Assembly (NCBI GenBank): GCA_002070115.1
Contig: MWCO01000003.1
Span: forward strand, 124,001 to 188,000
DNA: 64,000 nt
Direction: 5' to 3'
Source of the DNA: Deltaproteobacteria bacterium ADurb.Bin207
GTDB taxonomy: Bacteria > Myxococcota_A > Polyangia > Polyangiales > Polyangiaceae
The notes beneath the pieces are model-generated. The model did no database searches and was not told the origin of the DNA. It saw only the letters and a list, made by a program, of their open reading frames with translations. This document shows, one piece after another, positions 34,408 through 47,046 of this stretch (position 1 is the first letter of the stretch; each line of letters begins with the position of its first letter). Made by a program: the position numbers and the translations under genes.

Positions 34408-35298
34408 TCATTGCGGATCTGCACAACAACGAAACCCCGTGGAATAGTCCCGTTGGTTGCGAGTGGGTTCGTTTGGATAGTAGCCGTGAGCTACGTTTCT
34501 GGCTTCACAGCCTTCATAATTTCGTCCTTGCCCCATGTAATGGTCGCCCAGGGCAATGGCGTTTCCCTTATGCTCCTTCTCTGACACCAAATCGAAAACC
34601 CATTCCTGTAAATTGCCCACCATATCGAACGTTCCGTAGGCATTCGTACAATCAACATATTGGCCCGTGGGCGCAAGACCGTCGGGAACTTGATTGATGC
34701 GCGGGTCATTCATCTCGGACGTGCTCCACGTCGTGTGAGGATAGAAATACAACACCAAGTGGGAAGGGCCTGGGAATTTATGCGTGTTGCATCGCCGTTC
34801 GATACGGTGCTGAGTCCCGTACGGAAATATCATCCCTTGGGGACCGCGACAGGCAATCTGCCATTCGTGTTGCCTGCAAAGCCGAAAGCCCGCATTTTTA
34901 CAGGCGATCTCAGCTTGGTCGCGACCCGTATACCCTTGCGGTACAACGCCAGGTAGTGCATGTGCGCGCCATTCTCCCATTTGTTCGGGAAACGGCGGAA
35001 CACGATAAGGATCGTGCATCTGTCCCCGATCATCGATCAAATGAGCTTCCCAACGATGAATACAGAACGATGATTGAACCAGGATCATCGAGGAAGGACA
35101 TTGGTCCTTGGGGCGTTCGAGAACCATCGATTCAGCGTGTTCGACAGGCTCCGCACTTGCCGAAAGCACAACCTGTTCCACAGAAGATGACGACTTCGTT
35201 TCGACGGGATCCGTTTTTGCACAAGACATTTTTGCACAAGACACGACAATGCCCACAATCACCATCGAACGGGATCGGGATGGGAGCGTCGCGAGCAT
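34408..35298 (-). CDS. Lipoprotein with formylglycine-generating-enzyme (SUMF1) fold
   Basis: A 296-residue protein from ATG 35298, with a short signal ending IVVSC. The SUMF1/C-lectin fold is seen in SFCIHRWEAHLIDD, GFRLCRQHEWQIACRG, FDMVGNLQEWVFD and the terminal STGFRCC. The paired catalytic cysteines of true formylglycine-generating enzymes are not present in their usual context, so it is more likely a binding or structural member, common in myxobacteria. In-frame starts further upstream overlap the divergent cupin gene at 35391 and give no signal, so I rejected them. Confidence 0.75.
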   Translation of the reverse strand: MLATLPSRSRSMVIVGIVVSCAKMSCAKTDPVETKSSSSVEQVVLSASAEPVEHAESMVLERPKDQCPSSMILVQSSFCIHRWEAHLIDDRGQMHDPYRVPPFPEQMGEWRAHALPGVVPQGYTGRDQAEIACKNAGFRLCRQHEWQIACRGPQGMIFPYGTQHRIERRCNTHKFPGPSHLVLYFYPHTTWSTSEMNDPRINQVPDGLAPTGQYVDCTNAYGTFDMVGNLQEWVFDLVSEKEHKGNAIALGDHYMGQGRNYEGCEARNVAHGYYPNEPTRNQRDYSTGFRCCADPQ

Positions 35299-35390
35299 CT
35301 GTCGTGCATAATCTTTCCTCCCCAAAGGTCCAAGCTCGTTGCGCAAAACACGTGGCTGACACCGTTTGTACTTCTTGATAAAGCAAAGAT

Positions 35391-35792
35391 ATGAAAAACG
35401 TCCAAACGAGGCCTCCCTCGTTTCCCCAAGCTCCGCTTCACCAACCGCTGGCCTGGGAAAAGCAAACCCAATGGCAGGTTCTTTGCGGCGATACCCATCA
35501 TTGGCGTATGGGGATGTATTCACCGAAAGAAACGTCTCGCGCGGAACTTCATAACCTCGAACGCCATGATTGCCCCGAGTTGTTCGTACTTCTTCACGGA
35601 AGCTTGACCCTTGTCATCGCCGAAAGCAGCGGCTTGCGGGAAATTGTGCTCGAGCCCCATGTTCCCGTGCTCGTTGCCGCCCCCCATGCCGGCTATTGCC
35701 CCAGGGGACCGTATTCCGGCGTGGCCCTCGTGGTCGAAAGGGATTCGTTCGACACCGAATACCGCCCTGCGCGTTCGTGGATCGAATCATGA
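35391..35792 (+). CDS. Cupin-domain protein
   Basis: A 133-residue single-domain cupin: HNLERHDCPELFVLLHGSLT is motif 1 (with H, H, E) and APHAGYCPRGPYSGVALVVE covers motif 2 with one conserved His. It may bind a metal and act as a small enzyme or sensor; the substrate is unknown. Its stop overlaps the start of the dual-specificity phosphatase (ATGA), so the two are translationally coupled. Confidence 0.75.
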   Translation: MKNVQTRPPSFPQAPLHQPLAWEKQTQWQVLCGDTHHWRMGMYSPKETSRAELHNLERHDCPELFVLLHGSLTLVIAESSGLREIVLEPHVPVLVAAPHAGYCPRGPYSGVALVVERDSFDTEYRPARSWIES

Positions 35793-37867: not shown

Positions 37868-38390
37868 ATGAGTCTTACGCTCATCCTTACGGTTTGGCAC
37901 AGGAGTTGTCTCGACGACTTTCATGCGCAACCCGTGGCAGCGACCCAGTGCGGATATTTCGCCGCTTTTCGCTGGCTGGGAACCTCCGACGAATCCCGGG
38001 AAGCCTGTCAGGAAGCTGCCTCGCGAGCCCTCGGCGCGGCTCATCGATACGATCCAGAGCAACCTTTTTTCCGTGGTTTTATCGAATTTTGCGTAATCAT
38101 GGCGAAGGCTGTTTGCGGGAACGTCGACGATTTTGCGCGAACGATGCCAAACAAAGCTCCGTGGCCGCGCCTTCGGAAACAATGCTCGCGCAAAGCGAAC
38201 AACTGCGATCGATGGCAGAGGCTATTCAAATACTCCCGGAAAGACGTTCCTTTTCACCCTAACCGTGATGGCTCCCTGTTCGCTTGCACCCTCGCTGGCG
38301 ATCCAATCGCTGGGATTTGCAAAATTATGAACAATTACAATATGTTGACTCATGTTCAAGAGGGGCTGGGACGGCCCCTGCGTCGCTCTC
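37868..38390 (+). pseudogene. Decayed ECF-type sigma factor gene (frameshifted)
   Basis: In one frame the segment encodes YFAAFRWLGTSDESREACQE and ALGAAHRYDPEQPF, a sigma region 2 pattern. At the T6 run 38065-38070 the match jumps frame to FPWFYRILRNHGEGCLRERR, the hallmark continuation. It then reads AEAIQILPER, and a second jump gives FTLTVM with a region 4-like tail. Each single frame hits a stop or unrelated sequence. One extra T in the run would restore the first junction. The 3' end runs into the convergent lnt gene. A sequencing error at the T-run cannot explain the second shift. Confidence 0.6.
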
Positions 38391-39912
38391 TCAGCCGCAA
38401 TCCCAGGCCCATCGTCGACACGAGGAGGGATACCACAGGCACCGCATCTCCGATGGTTCCATACCAACTTGGCTCTTCGAGCCTTCGCACGAGCCCCCAA
38501 CCCGTTTTGAAGTCATCATGACTTCGATTCAACGATGAAAGGGACAAAATCTCTCCCGTGGCGCCAATCAAAGCCGATATCCCGCCCCCGGAAACGCGAA
38601 GCAAATCCCGACGGTTTTCTATGGCTCGAAAAACGGCATGCGCCAGGTGCTGTTCCGGTTCCGCCGTATCGCCAAACCACGTATCGTCCGAAAGATTGAC
38701 CAATACGGAAGAACGCCGCCCGATCGTTCTGACATGGCTCGGAAACGTGGATTCGAAACAGATGAATACACCGACCGAAATCCCGCCCACCTGCACCGGT
38801 TCCATGGACTCGCCCGGACGATAACGTCGGTTTTCCCGGCTCTCTAAAAAAGAAGGAAGCCATTCGCTATAGGGGATGAGCCGTATCTTCTCATAAACGA
38901 CTCCCAGTTGGTCATCCGGTTGGAGAAAAGCCGCGGCATTGCGGATTTCTCGCGAGGCTTTGTCCACGCTCGTGACACCAAATAAAAGGGGACTCGTAAA
39001 TCCTTTTCGGATCCTTAAGGGATGGGAAAGGCCATAGTCATGACGGGCCGTACGAAGCAGCAACCCTACCGCTTTTTCCGGCCATATCACCAAGTCCAGC
39101 GGGCCGACGTCGTTTTCCAGGATATGGCTAAGGTGTTGATAATCCGTCAAATTAATCTGCTCCGCTCCGGCTTGCCACCCTTTCGCTATCACGCCAGCCT
39201 GTACCCAACCCATCCGCATCGGAGCCGCAGATTGCCGTCGATTCCGTATTTGGACCATCCGTCCCCAGCCCCCCCCATGAATCAATACCATCATGGATAA
39301 CGCCAGGATCGCCGTTTGCCACCGCCGTGTTTTCGAGACTATCCCATGGGCAACCGCAGCATTGAACGCCACAAGCAAGGCACTTACGACATGAATCCCC
39401 CCTGCTTCGGCAACCTGCGCAAGAGGAAGATTACAATATTGCGTCAGGCCGAGGCTGAAAGGGAATAGCAGAGGCATGGCATATTCCATCGCCATGAAGG
39501 TAAGGGGGGCGGCCACGGAAAGGGGCCAACGCGGGAATAAGTAGCGAAGGCTCGCGGCCCAGATCGCCCATCCCAACGCTTGCAGCGCGAAAATCGTAAG
39601 TCCGAGGCCGATGGCCAAGCCGGGAGGAAGGCCAGCAAAACGGGCCATGAGCCCCGGAAACCAAGACATGGCGATGACTTGAAGCATCATGCTTGCCACC
39701 CAACCCAAGAACGCCGCCTTGGGTGGGCTGCTTTCCGAAATCCCCACGAGCAATGGCACGAGCGCTATCCACGCTAACCATGCCATCGCCCATGGCGGAG
39801 CCACGCTCAAAACGCCAGGCGCCGCAAGGGCAACACCCACCCCGGATAGCGCCGCAAGAGCAACCGGACGGCAACGACGCAAACGAGGTGGCAGCAAATC
39901 AAAAAAAATCAT
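38356..39912 (-). CDS. lnt: Apolipoprotein N-acyltransferase Lnt
   Basis: Transfers a fatty acyl chain from phospholipid to the N-terminal Cys of lipoproteins, the last maturation step in the inner membrane. Of 518 residues, about eight membrane helices frame a nitrilase-type periplasmic domain. The catalytic triad is visible: E279 (WPEKAV), K342 (YEKIRLIPYSEW) and C385 (ICFES). The length is normal. The many predicted lipoproteins in this window are its expected clients. The 3' end overlaps the decayed sigma gene. The ATG at 39912 is followed by a T-rich codon run and has no clear ribosome-binding site. Confidence 0.93.
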   Translation of the reverse strand: MIFFDLLPPRLRRCRPVALAALSGVGVALAAPGVLSVAPPWAMAWLAWIALVPLLVGISESSPPKAAFLGWVASMMLQVIAMSWFPGLMARFAGLPPGLAIGLGLTIFALQALGWAIWAASLRYLFPRWPLSVAAPLTFMAMEYAMPLLFPFSLGLTQYCNLPLAQVAEAGGIHVVSALLVAFNAAVAHGIVSKTRRWQTAILALSMMVLIHGGGWGRMVQIRNRRQSAAPMRMGWVQAGVIAKGWQAGAEQINLTDYQHLSHILENDVGPLDLVIWPEKAVGLLLRTARHDYGLSHPLRIRKGFTSPLLFGVTSVDKASREIRNAAAFLQPDDQLGVVYEKIRLIPYSEWLPSFLESRENRRYRPGESMEPVQVGGISVGVFICFESTFPSHVRTIGRRSSVLVNLSDDTWFGDTAEPEQHLAHAVFRAIENRRDLLRVSGGGISALIGATGEILSLSSLNRSHDDFKTGWGLVRRLEEPSWYGTIGDAVPVVSLLVSTMGLGLRLRERRRGRPSPS

Positions 39913-40125
39913 GGTGAAATCGACGGGTCAAGCCTTCTGAGGCTCCGCTCACGAGACGTTCCGCGAACATGCCGCCCATGAGACAGCAACAGGCGCGATG
40001 GGTGAAGGCGTGCCCAGGATACGCGCCTTGCAGGGACTGTTCGAAAGGACATCTGCGGACTTGGTTTTGGGCAACGACGCCAACGACGCCTTTCGTTCGA
40101 CACCAAAGAGCATCATACTCGAAGC

Positions 40126-41244
40126 GTGTCTCCTGCGCCGAGCGATATTCACCTGACGCTATCGTTGACCCACGATTGCAATCTTCGTTGCCATTATTGC
40201 TACTCAGGTGCGAAACAGGCACGACACATGCCGCTGGAAGTGGGAAAACGTGCGTTGCAATCCGCGTTGCGGCAGACCCGGCGACGATTGCATCTCGTTT
40301 TTTTTGGAGGGGAACCTTTGCTACGCTGGGCTGATCTGTTGGCCTTGACCGATGAGGCCCGGACAAGGGGAGAAAGCTGCGGCGTGCAAATTCTCCCGAC
40401 CCTTACCACCAATGGTACCCTGCTGACGGACGATCGCTGCGCCGAACTCGCTCAACGTCGCTTTCTACTGGCCGTATCTTGCGATGGGCTCGAGATGGCC
40501 CACGATGCTCTTCGACGCGATCGCGCCGGAATGGGTAGTTTCGCTCGGACCTGGCAAGGAATCAACACCGCCCTGAAAGCTCATCTACGGCCTCGGATCG
40601 CGCTCGTGGTCCATCCTTCGAATATTGCCTATCTGCCTGAATCTATTGAGTTTTTCGTTGCCGCGGGCCTGCGGGACTTCGTGGTCAATCTGGATTGGTC
40701 CGCCCCCTGGGATGCTCGAGGAATGAAGGAGCGGCTCACCCACGCTTACGAAAATGTGGCTGCCTTGTATGTGCAGGCTTACCGCGACGCGAATCCCTTT
40801 TGGATATCGATGATCGACTCGCGCATTGCCGACCGTATCCGAGGGGTCGATACGCAGGATCGATGCGACCTGGGCCGACGAAATCTCGTCGTGGCTCCCA
40901 GCGGCAACCTTTACCCTTGTGACCGATTGATAGGCGAAGACGACGGCCTTATGTCGATCGGTCATATCGACTCCGGGGTGGATGCAAGAAGGCTCGAAGC
41001 ATTCATGAAACAGGCTTCTTTCATTCCGACCGCGTGTTTGTCTTGCGCCATCCGCGAGCGGTGTAGACATCGATGCGCCTGTGCCAACCTCGCGATGAGC
41101 GGCCATGCGGGAACACCTACTTCCTTGCTCTGTTTCTATGAACAACTTTGCCTTCGGACGGCTGACGACGCGGCCGAGATGTTGTTTTCGGAAAGGAACG
41201 AAGGATTCCTTGGACAGCATTATGGTGACAAGGTACCTTTCTAA
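40126..41244 (+). CDS. Radical SAM/SPASM-type peptide-modifying enzyme
   Basis: A 372-residue protein. C18, C22 and C25 (CNLRCHYCY) bind the radical-SAM 4Fe-4S cluster, and FFGGEPLL is the SAM-binding GGE motif. The C-terminal ~120 residues carry ten or so cysteines in SPASM/twitch order (CDLGRR, NLYPCDRL, CLSCAIRERCRHRCACA, LLCFYEQLC), implying one or two auxiliary clusters. SPASM proteins usually modify peptides or proteins. The small gene at 41295 and the M50 protease at 41561 follow in the same direction, so a peptide-maturation role is likely (inference). The start is GTG 40126. Confidence 0.87.
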   Translation: MSPAPSDIHLTLSLTHDCNLRCHYCYSGAKQARHMPLEVGKRALQSALRQTRRRLHLVFFGGEPLLRWADLLALTDEARTRGESCGVQILPTLTTNGTLLTDDRCAELAQRRFLLAVSCDGLEMAHDALRRDRAGMGSFARTWQGINTALKAHLRPRIALVVHPSNIAYLPESIEFFVAAGLRDFVVNLDWSAPWDARGMKERLTHAYENVAALYVQAYRDANPFWISMIDSRIADRIRGVDTQDRCDLGRRNLVVAPSGNLYPCDRLIGEDDGLMSIGHIDSGVDARRLEAFMKQASFIPTACLSCAIRERCRHRCACANLAMSGHAGTPTSLLCFYEQLCLRTADDAAEMLFSERNEGFLGQHYGDKVPF

Positions 41245-41294
41245 TGCTTATCGCTTGTTTCGCACGGTTCTGAGTTCGACCGAAGGAGTTGATG

Positions 41295-41543
41295 ATGGGT
41301 TCGAAATTATCGCCCGTTTCTGCTTATCGCGAACGTGCTTACCCCAAGGTCGAGAGCCCCACGCTGCAACGGTTGTTGCTGCTCGTGGGGATGACCGCCA
41401 CTTCGCTTGGAGGATGCGGCCCCGCGATCGATTCGCGTACCGTCGACCGCGCCATCGATGAAGGCGATCTGGACGGTGCGGTGGATTGTGATGCGAATCC
41501 CGAAGCCGAATCTTGTACCCCCGCGGACGCCTCGACCGAGTGA
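41295..41543 (+). CDS. Small Asp/Cys-rich peptide, candidate substrate of the radical SAM enzyme
   Basis: An 82-residue protein with a good ribosome-binding site (aaggag, six bases upstream); ATG 41292 is an alternative. The N-terminal ~30 residues are basic and leader-like, then comes a hydrophobic helix (LQRLLLLVGMTATSLGGC). The last ~40 residues are acidic with three cysteines in all (GGCGP, VDCDAN, ESCTPAD). The GGC could be a lipobox, so a small lipoprotein is the alternative reading. Its position between a SPASM enzyme and a site-2-type protease suggests a modified, processed peptide. Confidence 0.6.
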   Translation: MGSKLSPVSAYRERAYPKVESPTLQRLLLLVGMTATSLGGCGPAIDSRTVDRAIDEGDLDGAVDCDANPEAESCTPADASTE

Positions 41544-41560
41544 GCGTCGAGACATCTTGA

Positions 41561-42556
41561 ATGCGTGTGTTTTGGCTACTACTCGGCCTCAGCGTCCTGG
41601 TGTTGTGGCACGAAATGGGGCACGCGCTGGTCGCCAGGGCGTTGCGTCTTCACCTAACCGATTTTTCCTTTGGCTTTGGCCCCACGATGGCTTCGAGATC
41701 ATGGCGGGGCGTGCGCTGGCGATGGGGAATGATCCCTTTCGGCGGTTTCGTTCGTGTCGCTCAACTTTCGTTGCGAGCCGATGAACCCGGGCGATTTCTT
41801 CCTCGTGCGGTTCTTTCCCGACTCTTGACCATTGTGGCTGGCTCGGCCGCCAATCTGCTGTTGGCGGCAATACTCGCTTTTTCGAGCGCGTGGTGGTGGG
41901 GCGAACCCACGGGGGCGATAAGCGGTTTGCAAGTGACGATGGTTCCCGAACGGTCCGCACTTCGGGTGGGGGACCGAATCGAGAAGATCAACGATATCGA
42001 GGTGAAAAGCGTGCATGATCTTCGTCGTGCGGTAGCAAAAGCCAAAATCGCGGAAGTCCAATTATGGCGGGCAGGCAACCTCATGCATTTGCCCATCGTA
42101 CCCATCGAACGGGCTGGTAAGAGGGGATTCGATGCTCGTTATGTCATTGTCGAACAGACCTATAAACCGAACCTGCGCCAAGCGTTGGGGATAGGCGCAC
42201 GAGCGCCATACCATCAGGCCATCTCGCTTTTTCGAAACAGTGGGACGATCGTCAGACCAGATTCCGGCGTGCGCCCGGTAACGGCTGTCGGATTGGCCGA
42301 TCGGGTGTCGCAAACCGGACGGTGGGATGGTCGACGCCTCTTTTCTTTGGCCTCGACGCTTTCGGTGGCGGTGGGGCTGTTCAACTTATTACCAATACCG
42401 GGCTTGGATGGGGCCCGCTTCGTGCTGGAAGTCGTGGAGTCCGTCCGACGAAAGCGCATTTCGATTCGTTGGGCCTTGTATGTGCAGGTGGCGGGTGCCG
42501 TTTTTTTGGGGCTGCTGTGGCTATGGCTAGGATGGCTCGACTGCCTCGGACGATAA
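41561..42556 (+). CDS. M50 (RseP/site-2-type) membrane metalloprotease
   Basis: A 331-residue intramembrane zinc protease. HEMGH at 17-21 lies in the first membrane helix, and the third-ligand motif GLDGARF near 282 in the last region. A single PDZ-like domain sits at ~125-195 (SALRVGDRIEKINDIEVKSV). Three to four membrane helices are visible. It would cleave a membrane-inserted peptide or anti-sigma factor. It starts 17 bases after the small peptide gene, whose hydrophobic helix is an obvious candidate substrate (inference). Confidence 0.88.
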   Translation: MRVFWLLLGLSVLVLWHEMGHALVARALRLHLTDFSFGFGPTMASRSWRGVRWRWGMIPFGGFVRVAQLSLRADEPGRFLPRAVLSRLLTIVAGSAANLLLAAILAFSSAWWWGEPTGAISGLQVTMVPERSALRVGDRIEKINDIEVKSVHDLRRAVAKAKIAEVQLWRAGNLMHLPIVPIERAGKRGFDARYVIVEQTYKPNLRQALGIGARAPYHQAISLFRNSGTIVRPDSGVRPVTAVGLADRVSQTGRWDGRRLFSLASTLSVAVGLFNLLPIPGLDGARFVLEVVESVRRKRISIRWALYVQVAGAVFLGLLWLWLGWLDCLGR

Positions 42557-42766
42557 GGGGTTGAGCGGGCTCATCTTTCTTGCCAAAATGGTATTATTGT
42601 GAAAATTGCAGAAAATAATACGAATGCAAAGACCAAAACCTAAGACAGTCTCCTCGGATGTGGTGTAACTATTGGAATTCATTATTAAAATTACTATTTC
42701 CTGAAAGAGTGATCGCTTTCTGGAACGGCATATTGTACCTTCAGCTCCGAAAAAAGGAGAGGATTC
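42557..42766 (+). other. AT-rich intergenic segment
   Basis: About 210 bases, clearly richer in A and T than the flanking genes, without a convincing gene. It ends in a strong ribosome-binding site (aaaaggagagg) for the lipoprotein at 42767. It probably holds the promoter for that gene; I could not fix -35/-10 boxes with confidence. Confidence 0.4.
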
Positions 42767-43333
42767 ATGAACCTTGGATTTCGACCGTATGTCCTTCTGG
42801 GTTGTGCATTTTCGATGGTTCTTGCCGTGTCGGGATGCTGCAAGGACAAAACGCAGGACACGCCAGGGGAGACACCTGCTGTCGCTTCGGAAACGCCGGT
42901 CATTCCTGGCCTGCCCACCAAAAAGCCCGTCTCGGTAAAAACGATCAAGATCGGGGAGTCTGCGGAAATGAGCGAATTCAAACTCGAGGCAAAAGAAGCC
43001 AAAGAGTGCAAGGCCAAAGGATATTCGCGCCCCAAAAAGGATCATAAGTGGGTTGGCGTAGACGTTTTGATTGAAGCCACCGGCACCAAAGAGCTTCTGG
43101 TCAATCAATTATCTGCTAAAGTAACGGATTCCGAAGGCGTGGTTCATAACGCATCCTATGCAACACAGAGTAGTTGTGGAGAACATTTTAAATCGGCACG
43201 CCTCAACAATGGTGAAAAAGCAAAAGGATGGTTGATTTTTGAAGTACCGAAAGCGGCGAAAGGGTTCACCATGACTTATACTGAGCGAAGTTATACGGAG
43301 AGCGACGCCGTTAAAGTGGAATTAGGCTTGTAG
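42767..43333 (+). CDS. DUF4352-like lipoprotein
   Basis: A 188-residue exported protein with lipobox AVSGC (Cys 24) and a polar linker. The C-terminal ~125 residues have the DUF4352 immunoglobulin-like pattern: KIGESAEMSEFKLEAKEA, KWVGVDVLIEATGTKELLV, KVTDSEGVVHNASY and GWLIFEVPKAAKGFTMTYTE. Proteins of this type sit on the outer face of membranes with unknown ligands. Codon use is more A/T-ending than that of its neighbours. A clear ribosome-binding site supports the start. Confidence 0.8.
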   Translation: MNLGFRPYVLLGCAFSMVLAVSGCCKDKTQDTPGETPAVASETPVIPGLPTKKPVSVKTIKIGESAEMSEFKLEAKEAKECKAKGYSRPKKDHKWVGVDVLIEATGTKELLVNQLSAKVTDSEGVVHNASYATQSSCGEHFKSARLNNGEKAKGWLIFEVPKAAKGFTMTYTERSYTESDAVKVELGL

Positions 43334-45003: not shown

Positions 45004-46350
45004 TCAGAACTTTTTGACGGGGCCACCCACGGCTTCTTGAAAAGGAATCTCTTTGGAAATATTTCGATACCGTTCCATCATCGCCGCGGCACGCTCTTTT
45101 TCAACTTCGATGAGATTTTTGCTCTCATGCGGATCATCTTTGATATTGTACATCTCGAAAACTCGATCCGCGCCGGCTACCGAGAGCTTATAACCATTTT
45201 CATCGATGAAAACCCGTTTTCGAACGTTATAGGTATCAGCGGGAAGGTCAGCGATGATCGGTCGAGCAGGTGTTTCCTTCCCTTGAATTTCTGGCCATAA
45301 GCTGACACCCGGCAGGTCTTTGGGAATGGGTATACCCATCATATCCAAAATAGTCGGTACGAGATCGATATGACTTCGCCATCGGGAAATTTTCCTACCC
45401 TCGAGACCCGGAACATATATAAATAGAGGCACACGGATCAACACCTCGTACAACTCAAAGGCGTGCTTCCAGAAATTGTGTTCACCAAAAGCCTCACCGT
45501 GATCACCAGTTACGATAACGACCGTATGCTTGCCCCACGGCTGTGTATTGACATAATCTAACATGGCTTGAATGTGATGATCGGTGAACCATATCTCCTG
45601 ATCATAACGGTCACGCCCTTTTTTCCCGAAGTCAGGAGCTATGGAGTGCGTATTGTAAACATCGTGCGGATCCATATAATGGTAATACGCAAAAAATTGC
45701 CCTGAAGTATTTTCTCTTTCCGCATGAATCTCATTGATGAGTTTGGTATGATCCGGTGCGGTAATATATGGGTCTTTGTTGTAATCCCATTGAATACCCG
45801 GAACCATTTTCCATACATCGAATCCTTGGTGAAATCCTGCAACGGATTTCAAATACATATGTGCCTGGACGCCGAGCGTTCGGATTCCACGTTTCTGAAG
45901 TAACTCCGCCATGAATTCGTTTTCATCTTTATAAGATGTGAAAAACGGAGAGGTCCGAGCCAAGGATGACGGATATCGTCCAGTCAATAAACCACCCACG
46001 CTCTTGGACGTAAATGATGAAATCGCATAACCCCGTTCGTAGGCAATGGACTTGGCATGAAGTTGCGTCAGATTCGGGGCGATAGCTCGGTCGTAACCCT
46101 CCCAGGGCATGTCGTAACGCATGGCATCGACCACCAACAAGATGACATTCAGTGGTTTCTTAGGCGTTTCAACGGGAATAGGAGTCGAGGAGGCGGCTAC
46201 GGCGGGTGAAGAGGATGTGGCAGTTGGCTCGGGATCTGTCGTTTTGCCCCGCTCACAGCCGGTGATCAGCAAAACGACGGTAACGAGGATTCGGGTAGAG
46301 GCCTGGGAAAACATGGCGGAACCATGCAACGCGCCGATTCGATTTTCCAT
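45004..46350 (-). CDS. Sulfatase-fold (alkaline phosphatase superfamily) lipoprotein
   Basis: A 448-residue protein with lipobox LLITGC. The core fold is clear: LLVVDAMRYDMPWEG (metal Asp), FAYYHYMDPHDVYN, VVIVTGDHGEAFGEHNFW (metal-binding DH) and late IDLVPTILDMMG. The nucleophile region reads SSFTSKSVGGLLTGRYPS, with Ser/Thr where true type I sulfatases have C/S-x-P-x-R. It may therefore be a phosphohydrolase or transferase-like member. The start at 46350 or at 46314 is uncertain. It is exported and probably surface-acting. Confidence 0.82.
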   Translation of the reverse strand: MENRIGALHGSAMFSQASTRILVTVVLLITGCERGKTTDPEPTATSSSPAVAASSTPIPVETPKKPLNVILLVVDAMRYDMPWEGYDRAIAPNLTQLHAKSIAYERGYAISSFTSKSVGGLLTGRYPSSLARTSPFFTSYKDENEFMAELLQKRGIRTLGVQAHMYLKSVAGFHQGFDVWKMVPGIQWDYNKDPYITAPDHTKLINEIHAERENTSGQFFAYYHYMDPHDVYNTHSIAPDFGKKGRDRYDQEIWFTDHHIQAMLDYVNTQPWGKHTVVIVTGDHGEAFGEHNFWKHAFELYEVLIRVPLFIYVPGLEGRKISRWRSHIDLVPTILDMMGIPIPKDLPGVSLWPEIQGKETPARPIIADLPADTYNVRKRVFIDENGYKLSVAGADRVFEMYNIKDDPHESKNLIEVEKERAAAMMERYRNISKEIPFQEAVGGPVKKF

Positions 46351-46392: not shown

Positions 46393-47046
46393 TCAATGAA
46401 CACGCAATCCCGCCAGTTTCACCGCTCCTCTGTGATATCCACTTGGAAATAACTGCGCCAACGTTTCCAACGAGAGCCCCAACTCCTCGCATACGGAGTA
46501 TACCGTCGGAACGTCCCCAGTCTCGTCGTAAACGTTTCGAAGGTGATCGAGCACTTCCCAATGTTGTTGGGTCAACCCTGCCTCGATTCCCATTTCCCGA
46601 GCGCGATGGATAGCGAAGGCACTGTCCCATTCGTCGGGATCCACTAGAAAACCCAGCACATCGACACGATACACTTTATCGATCCCTTTGGCCGTGCATT
46701 GTCGATCGTCTTTTCCATGGCACGGACTACAGAGAATCGAATCGCGATAGGAAATACCAGCCAGGCGGCACGCACCGCGCAAGTAGCCACTTGGAAATAG
46801 GGCCTGCAAATCGGCGACGGACAACCCGTTGTCGGAGCAAACGAAGTAGAGCAATGGGCATCGTCCGGTCTTCTCGAATTGGCTGCGAAGGTAGCGAATG
46901 ACAGCCCAGTGACGGTCTGTCAATCCTTGCGTGATTCCAACGATTGGTGCCGTTTGGCGTGCAAAATCTTCCGTCCAGTCTTCCGGATGATCGAGAAAAC
47001 CCAGATGATCCACCGAGGGGGCCTTGTACGTGCTGTCGTGCATCAT
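46393..47046 (-). CDS. Tandem double-domain DsrC/TusE-like protein
   Basis: A 217-residue protein made of two DsrC-like modules, ~11-105 and ~128-217; a normal DsrC is ~105-110 residues. Each repeats the family pattern GFL..P..W, L(T)..HW.V...LR..(Y) and FPSGY.RGA..LAG. The N-module keeps a Cys in the ACRLAG position (C93), while the C-module has Val (GAVKLAG). The family's C-terminal Cys arm is missing in both; instead the linker has C106, C109 and C117. A sulfur-carrier role cannot be assumed. It lies 43 bases upstream of the sulfatase-fold gene on the same strand. Confidence 0.75.
   Translation of the reverse strand: MMHDSTYKAPSVDHLGFLDHPEDWTEDFARQTAPIVGITQGLTDRHWAVIRYLRSQFEKTGRCPLLYFVCSDNGLSVADLQALFPSGYLRGACRLAGISYRDSILCSPCHGKDDRQCTAKGIDKVYRVDVLGFLVDPDEWDSAFAIHRAREMGIEAGLTQQHWEVLDHLRNVYDETGDVPTVYSVCEELGLSLETLAQLFPSGYHRGAVKLAGLRVH

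Follow-up and report, generated by a model that had tools for sequence, protein, structure and literature searches.

A 64,000-nucleotide stretch of the genome of Deltaproteobacteria bacterium ADurb.Bin207 (contig MWCO01000003.1; G000:C3:124001-188000 of the 6.55 Mb, 220-contig assembly that we designate G000; hereafter the window) contains a compact locus encoding a radical SAM/SPASM enzyme, a small exported protein, and an M50 site-2 protease. With modest confidence, we interpret this locus as a dedicated lipoprotein-maturation cassette, the radical-SAM counterpart of the MNIO-made DAG-RiPPs (RiPPs being ribosomally synthesized and post-translationally modified peptides), equipped with an apolipoprotein N-acyltransferase (Lnt) and a site-2 protease of its own. 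The interpretation draws on sequence features of several kinds: the gene set, its conservation among orthologues, the predicted lipobox and leader motif of the small protein, the apparent retention of catalytic residues, and the recurrent pairing of related enzymes with putative exported partners. A preliminary description of the DNA had proposed that enzyme, small substrate, and membrane protease form a single maturation locus, a view supported by conserved gene order and by a leader motif associated with the enzyme family; that description was right in its logic and wrong about the core, and it missed both the lipoprotein nature of the small protein and a divergent Lnt gene.

Gene content and conservation of the locus

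Three consecutive plus-strand genes lie where they had been described, as the coordinates of the open reading frames (ORFs) confirm, and a divergent Lnt paralogue beyond them is the fourth gene of the cassette. The features are:

38356 to 39912, minus strand: Lnt-like apolipoprotein N-acyltransferase paralogue, 518 residues (TIGR00546, aligned residues, orthologues in genomes G022 and G144)
40126 to 41244, plus strand: radical SAM/SPASM maturase, 372 residues, GTG start (Pfam, cysteine pattern, AlphaFold2 model)
41295 to 41543, plus strand: preprolipoprotein of 82 residues, the proposed substrate (ORF call, orthologue alignment, codon pattern)
41325 to 41348, plus strand: leader motif Y-x-x-R-x-Y-P-K, residues 11 to 18, upstream of the hydrophobic segment
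41397 to 41426, plus strand: ATSLGGCGPA, residues 35 to 44, invariant in the three-orthologue alignment and including the lipobox L-G-G-C
41430 to 41486, plus strand: Asp-rich mature block D..TVD.A.D.GDLD..VD, residues 46 to 64, conserved in the alignment; proposed modified region
41561 to 42556, plus strand: M50 site-2 protease paralogue, RseP-like, 331 residues, with one PDZ-like stretch (Pfam, motifs)

The Lnt and radical SAM genes are separated by 213 bp, the radical SAM gene and small ORF by 47-50 nt, and the small ORF and M50 gene by 17 nt. An alternative ATG at 41292 would lengthen the small protein from 82 to 83 residues, and GGAG immediately precedes the pair of ATGs. A promoter and terminator scan of 39700-42800 gave no signal above chance.

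Orthologues of the small protein were sought in 183 genomes of the same order and in a separate set of 377 genomes. Three of the 183 contain one at E below 1e-19, namely that of the window itself, G022 from the same family, and G133, the latter two 48-49% identical to the window protein; further matches (E at least 8.6e-5 in the 377 genomes and at least 1e-3 in the 183) fall mostly within long open frames and were taken as chance. The order enzyme-peptide-M50 can be read in the window, G022, and G133, and is kept in all three, so that the recurrence beside SPASM and M50 genes for which the preliminary description had proposed a search is indeed found. The Lnt flank can be read in the window, G022, and G144 (in G133 only about 200 bp of contig precede the radical SAM gene, and the G144 contig stops within that gene), and a divergent Lnt gene adjoins the radical SAM gene in each. 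No peptide orthologue lacking the radical SAM enzyme, the pattern earlier named as fatal to the cassette idea, turned up in these searches. Among the matches listed in a GTDB scan for the triad, we found only distant relatives and no orthologue of the triad.

The small protein

Comparison of G022 with G133 over 63 codons (the first 64 without the start codon) reveals 13, 5, and 43 differences at codon positions 1, 2, and 3 respectively, with a dN of 0.157 and a dS that is not computable. This pattern indicates a protein-coding sequence under purifying selection, and the small ORF is a genuine gene.

Ahead of the hydrophobic segment, the alignment preserves the block S-x-L-x-P...Y..R.YPK, with Y11, R14, Y16, P17, and K18 invariant in all three orthologues. 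A positively charged n-region, the hydrophobic segment, and a lipobox cysteine identify the small protein, by motif, as a predicted lipoprotein in which Cys41 is the lipobox residue and the proposed site of lipidation. The acidic three-Cys tail of the preliminary description is present in the window, but one of these cysteines is that of the lipobox, and the other two are missing from both G022 and G133, where the tail is variable; we therefore reject the earlier suggestion of a Cys/Asp-rich C-terminal core. The other pattern that had been named against a cassette, a plain lipoprotein with a conserved lipobox and no conserved core, applies only in part: conservation covers the lipobox, but also the leader motif and the mature block.

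The radical SAM enzyme

The protein encoded at 40126-41244 matches Pfam Radical_SAM (1.3e-14) and has the CxxxCxxC motif (C18, C22, C25). Although the Pfam SPASM match is below cut-off (15.4 versus 21.5 bits), the full SPASM cysteine pattern is present as C247-x12-GX4C265 ... C304-x2-C-x5-C-x3-C317 ... C336 (C247, C265, C304, C307, C313, C317, and C336), and six SPASM cysteines are invariant across 24 aligned sequences; the original assignment to the radical SAM/SPASM proteins is upheld by these patterns. An AlphaFold2 model built with the 24 sequences (mean pLDDT 90.7, pTM 0.89) has as its closest solved fold CteB, the maturase of SCIFF peptides (Z 36.8, rmsd 2.4 A over 341 residues, 24% identity), which is also matched in sequence (5wgg, 5why; E 1.5e-27), followed by anSME (Z 33.4, 2.8 A, 347 residues) and ChlB (Z 31.0, 2.7 A, 342 residues); the absence of a family from the fold comparison was never used as a ground to exclude it. 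The alignment begins only at CteB residue 88, so that the window enzyme lacks an N-terminal leader-binding domain; recognition of a leader would then fall to the enzyme core or the SPASM half.

The top NCBIfam matches are peptide maturases, all of those shown scoring far below their cut-offs. The first of them is PapB (NF047865), like the window enzyme a radical SAM/SPASM RiPP maturase, and together with the position of CteB, a thioether maturase, as best solved fold and the C-T-P-A-D (CX3D) of the window tail, this could suggest ranthipeptide-like chemistry: as PapB does, the enzyme would join Cys and Asp of the acidic tail by a thioether, and the M50 protease would then release the product. 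We consider this reading, of those weighed the nearest to the preliminary description, very unlikely: the PapB score of 171.3 bits is half of the 340-bit cut-off, and membership was rejected; the two orthologues, lacking the tail cysteines, conserve no Cys-X3-Asp or other Cys/Asp cross-link motif of the kind PapB modifies; and of 32 partners collected beside related enzymes (see below), 15 have no cysteine or only that of the lipobox, so that a thioether in the core is ruled out as the reaction general to the family.

The fold match to anSME and a Sulfatase-domain gene about 2.5 kb past the M50 gene raise another alternative, in which the enzyme would serve as a sulfatase maturase and its target would be the sulfatase-fold product of 45004-46350 (minus strand; PF00884, 130.6 bits). 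Maturable sulfatases carry a C/S-x-P-x-R motif. The protein in question reads TSKSVGGLLTG at that position, the enzyme scores 96.3 bits against a TIGR03942 cut-off of 349.45, and the ORFs of 180 residues or more listed around the G022 locus showed no sulfatase-fold gene. On the strength of the motif and the TIGR03942 score we rejected this alternative, which we regard as scarcely credible; the sulfatase-fold protein itself is probably a Thr-dependent sulfatase relative.

Pairing of the enzyme family with exported proteins

Of 97 kin genomes, 35 encode relatives of the enzyme with an E of 1e-15 or below; more distant relatives, among the matches listed, occur in Akkermansia, Kiritimatiellae, Lentisphaerae, Clostridia, and others. 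The GTDB scan listed 80 loci, 23 of which entered the family counts; L118 was omitted because it shares a contig with L035, and the remaining 56, most of them more distant, stayed out of the counts. The immediate neighbor of many relatives encodes an exported protein, in most cases a lipoprotein, with x-P-x-Y-P or a similar motif in its n-region. Specifically, i) a Tyr-Pro (YP) n-region is found in 17 of 35 adjacent exported ORFs versus 6 of 97 non-adjacent ones (Fisher p 1.6e-7), and four of those six represent a second copy within the neighborhood; ii) in a different scan, 30 of 67 loci have an exported ORF with a YP leader on the same strand within 800 bp of the radical SAM gene, where about 0.85 would be expected (0.0127 per locus, from 7 other hits in 881,954 strand-bases), the loci including close relatives such as L116 and L119 and hence being non-independent; iii) the test is conservative at L053, which was scored as lacking a partner despite having a YP lipoprotein; and iv) in the genome of the window itself, the YP motif occurs in just 1 of 58 exported-like ORFs over 364 kb, that one being the window peptide. 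The pairing with an exported YP-leader protein thus appears, from these sequence counts, to be a trait of the enzyme family, and the preliminary statement that the genes are linked by adjacency only is superseded.

A lipobox is present in 25 of the 32 collected partners. Loci with a Tyr-Pro leader were seen among deltaproteobacteria or myxobacteria, in Akkermansia, and in Lentisphaerae, and we see an even chance that they represent a class of exported proteins, spanning phyla and modified by radical SAM enzymes, in which a Tyr-Pro leader precedes a Sec or lipoprotein signal peptide, the window branch having added a dedicated N-acyltransferase and site-2 protease; in such a class the leader would call on a radical enzyme in the cytosol, ahead of export. 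The leader also provides a search handle for many further enzyme/partner pairs. The mature regions share G[DE][ILV][ASDR] in 11 of 32 partners (shuffle mean 3.1, maximum 9 in 500), but as one of seven patterns tried by eye, a common G[DE][ILV] motif is only a hint.

In one branch, the mature parts of the partners repeat the aromatic-acidic motifs PYD, PFD, and PWD, which would fit a reaction that forms rings. The conserved mature block of the window branch contains no aromatic residue, so that the reaction there would probably involve Asp or aliphatic side chains.

The Lnt and M50 paralogues

The Lnt-like protein scores 205.5 bits against TIGR00546 (cut-off 132.9) and, aligned with the 5n6m enzyme, keeps the Glu (WPE), Lys, and Cys (ICFE) positions that we take to be catalytic. 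The protein encoded at 41561-42556 matches Peptidase_M50 (PF02163; 5.8e-39, 134.1 bits versus a cut-off of 27.2) and bears HEMGH and NLLPIPGLDG, in agreement with its first description as a site-2-type protease with HEMGH and GLDG; the HExGH and LDG motifs are present in all three cassette copies. It scores 132.2 bits against the RseP equivalog TIGR00054, below the cut-off of 147.55. Both G000 and G022 encode one more Lnt and one more RseP at other places in the genome (the separate RseP-like copy of G000 is on contig C36), and in small trees the cassette M50 and Lnt split from these other copies with support of 1.0 in both cases.

The M50 gene, adjoining the lipoprotein gene in all three loci, and the unusually high conservation of the leader and the h/c-region (MxATSLGGC) suggest an alternative in which the signal peptide is the useful product: modification would fall on the leader itself, at Y..R.YPK or close by, and after LspA cleavage at Cys41 the M50 protease would free a short modified, pheromone-like peptide from the membrane. 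Site-2 proteases (RseP/Eep) act in this way on lipoprotein signal peptides in enterococci and streptococci. A route to pheromones through signal peptidase II and then a site-2 protease is described in a review (PMC10202637). We nonetheless think it unlikely here: the mature block is conserved equally with the leader, the neighboring Lnt favors the lipidated half as product, and no M50 gene was seen alongside other family members that have the leader.

Proposed maturation pathway

If the locus is a lipoprotein-maturation cassette, the radical SAM/SPASM enzyme would, in the cytoplasm and before export, recognize the N-terminal Y..R.YPK leader and modify the Asp-rich stretch directly past the lipobox; the modified precursor would then be exported, diacylglycerated on Cys41 by the Lgt of the cell, and cleaved before Cys41 by the host LspA; the cassette Lnt would N-acylate Cys41, adding a third acyl chain; and the cassette M50 protease might cut or clear the signal-peptide remnant from the membrane, leaving a small triacylated, radical-SAM-modified lipopeptide. 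The steps that follow modification are modeled on the known lipoprotein pathway (PMC12636315) and on the action of site-2 proteases on lipoprotein signal peptides (PMC10202637). We infer that the small protein is the substrate, as well as the order of the steps and the roles of Lnt and M50.

Several points weigh against this reading: i) modification of the small protein is proposed from sequence; ii) the lipobox was assigned by motif rather than by a signal-peptide predictor; iii) only three peptide orthologues were found in the 183- and 377-genome searches, two of them (G022 and G133) in one genus; iv) by the same test that detected 30 YP partners, 37 of the 67 related loci have none, including the second relative of the enzyme in G000 itself (L037, on contig C67), which adjoins a gene resembling, by eye, an RNA methyltransferase; v) the YP motif was defined post hoc from cases already seen, at loci that are mutually related; vi) neither M50 nor Lnt was seen beside the other radical SAM family members looked at; and vii) the authors of PMC12636315 expect lipidated RiPPs to be mostly leader-independent, whereas we propose a leader. 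The first, third, and fourth of these would equally favor an ordinary lipoprotein lying beside a radical SAM enzyme that acts on a target elsewhere. This we judge improbable given the strong enrichment of YP-leader exported proteins beside the enzyme family and the occurrence of the motif in just 1 of the 58 exported-like ORFs counted in the same genome.

The locus offers a concrete radical-SAM candidate for a RiPP-lipoprotein hybrid, and with three genes plus Lnt it is small enough to be expressed whole. If it is a maturation cassette, the substrate of a radical enzyme would bear an export signal, which poses the problem of how modification can get ahead of export, and both Lnt and a site-2 protease would have been duplicated for a single substrate.

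Comparison with known systems

A 2025 preprint (PMC12636315) defined RiPP-lipoprotein hybrids made by MNIO enzymes as a group, the DAG-RiPPs (DybA/DybH, NedABC); it demonstrated triacylated, MNIO-modified lipoproteins and forecast that more hybrids, possibly beyond MNIOs, would come to light. The window shares with DAG-RiPPs a small precursor with a lipobox, an adjoining cytosolic metalloenzyme, and the general lipoprotein export pathway, and the DAG-RiPP hallmark of a lipobox precursor beside a RiPP-type enzyme gene is recognizable in its sequence. DAG-RiPPs differ in using MNIO enzymes, the host lipoprotein pathway, and (in the ChrH family) C-terminal recognition; the window has instead a radical SAM/SPASM enzyme, an N-terminal leader motif, and its own Lnt and site-2 protease. 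Neither "radical SAM" nor "rSAM" occurs in the main text of PMC12636315. Bufferins (PMC12452194) are likewise RiPP precursors with signal peptides, of lipoprotein type in about 16% of Buf2, but involve MNIO enzymes, Cys motifs, and copper. Eep/RseP processing (PMC10202637) resembles our proposal in that an M50 protease acts after signal peptidase II; that review has no mention of a radical SAM enzyme, and the protease gene in the window is linked to a single lipoprotein. In a literature search that mostly did not extend to subscription journals and judged papers by title and opening of the abstract, we recognized no work on radical-SAM-modified lipoproteins of this type, and leader-directed modification before export yielded MNIO cases only.

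The families TIGR04133 and TIGR04134 (rSAM_w_lipo and lipo_with_rSAM) also pair a radical SAM enzyme with a putative lipoprotein, and are typical of Bacteroidetes. The window enzyme, at 49.2 versus 425 bits, was rejected as a member of TIGR04133; TIGR04134 has no match at the window peptide and none above cut-off in four genomes.

Other partners and neighboring genes

Upstream of the radical SAM gene at L036, L050, L051, L052, L056, L057, L060, and L061 are Gly/Asp-rich lipoproteins with repeats such as GDIAYPYDAG, GGGAPYPYEDG, and GDISEPFDAA, possibly multi-core substrates of ring-forming radical SAM enzymes. A larger type of partner, mostly lipoprotein-like and spread over several phyla (L105, L108, L116, L119, L124, L127, L034, L035, L053), adjoins the radical SAM gene and has a similar C-terminal end (...Q...F..W....G); two were tried against NCBIfam without a significant match. 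At L121, L122, L131, and L132 (Planctomycete/Verrucomicrobia), a small membrane protein with a GATRS-like stretch in common is encoded directly downstream of the enzyme, followed in some by a gene resembling signal peptidase.

Directly after the cassette, the window encodes a DUF4352 lipoprotein (42767-43333, plus strand, 63 bits); no such gene was seen after the M50 gene in G022, and it is therefore probably outside the cassette. The minus-strand gene at 34408-35523 specifies a formylglycine-generating-enzyme-like domain (PF03781, 42 bits), and a lipoprotein downstream of L037 looks by eye like a protein of this kind. Finally, the 217-residue protein encoded at 46393-47046 (minus strand) contains two DsrC-like stretches (PF04358, 131 bits); unusually, a sulfur-carrier fold is duplicated within a single protein.

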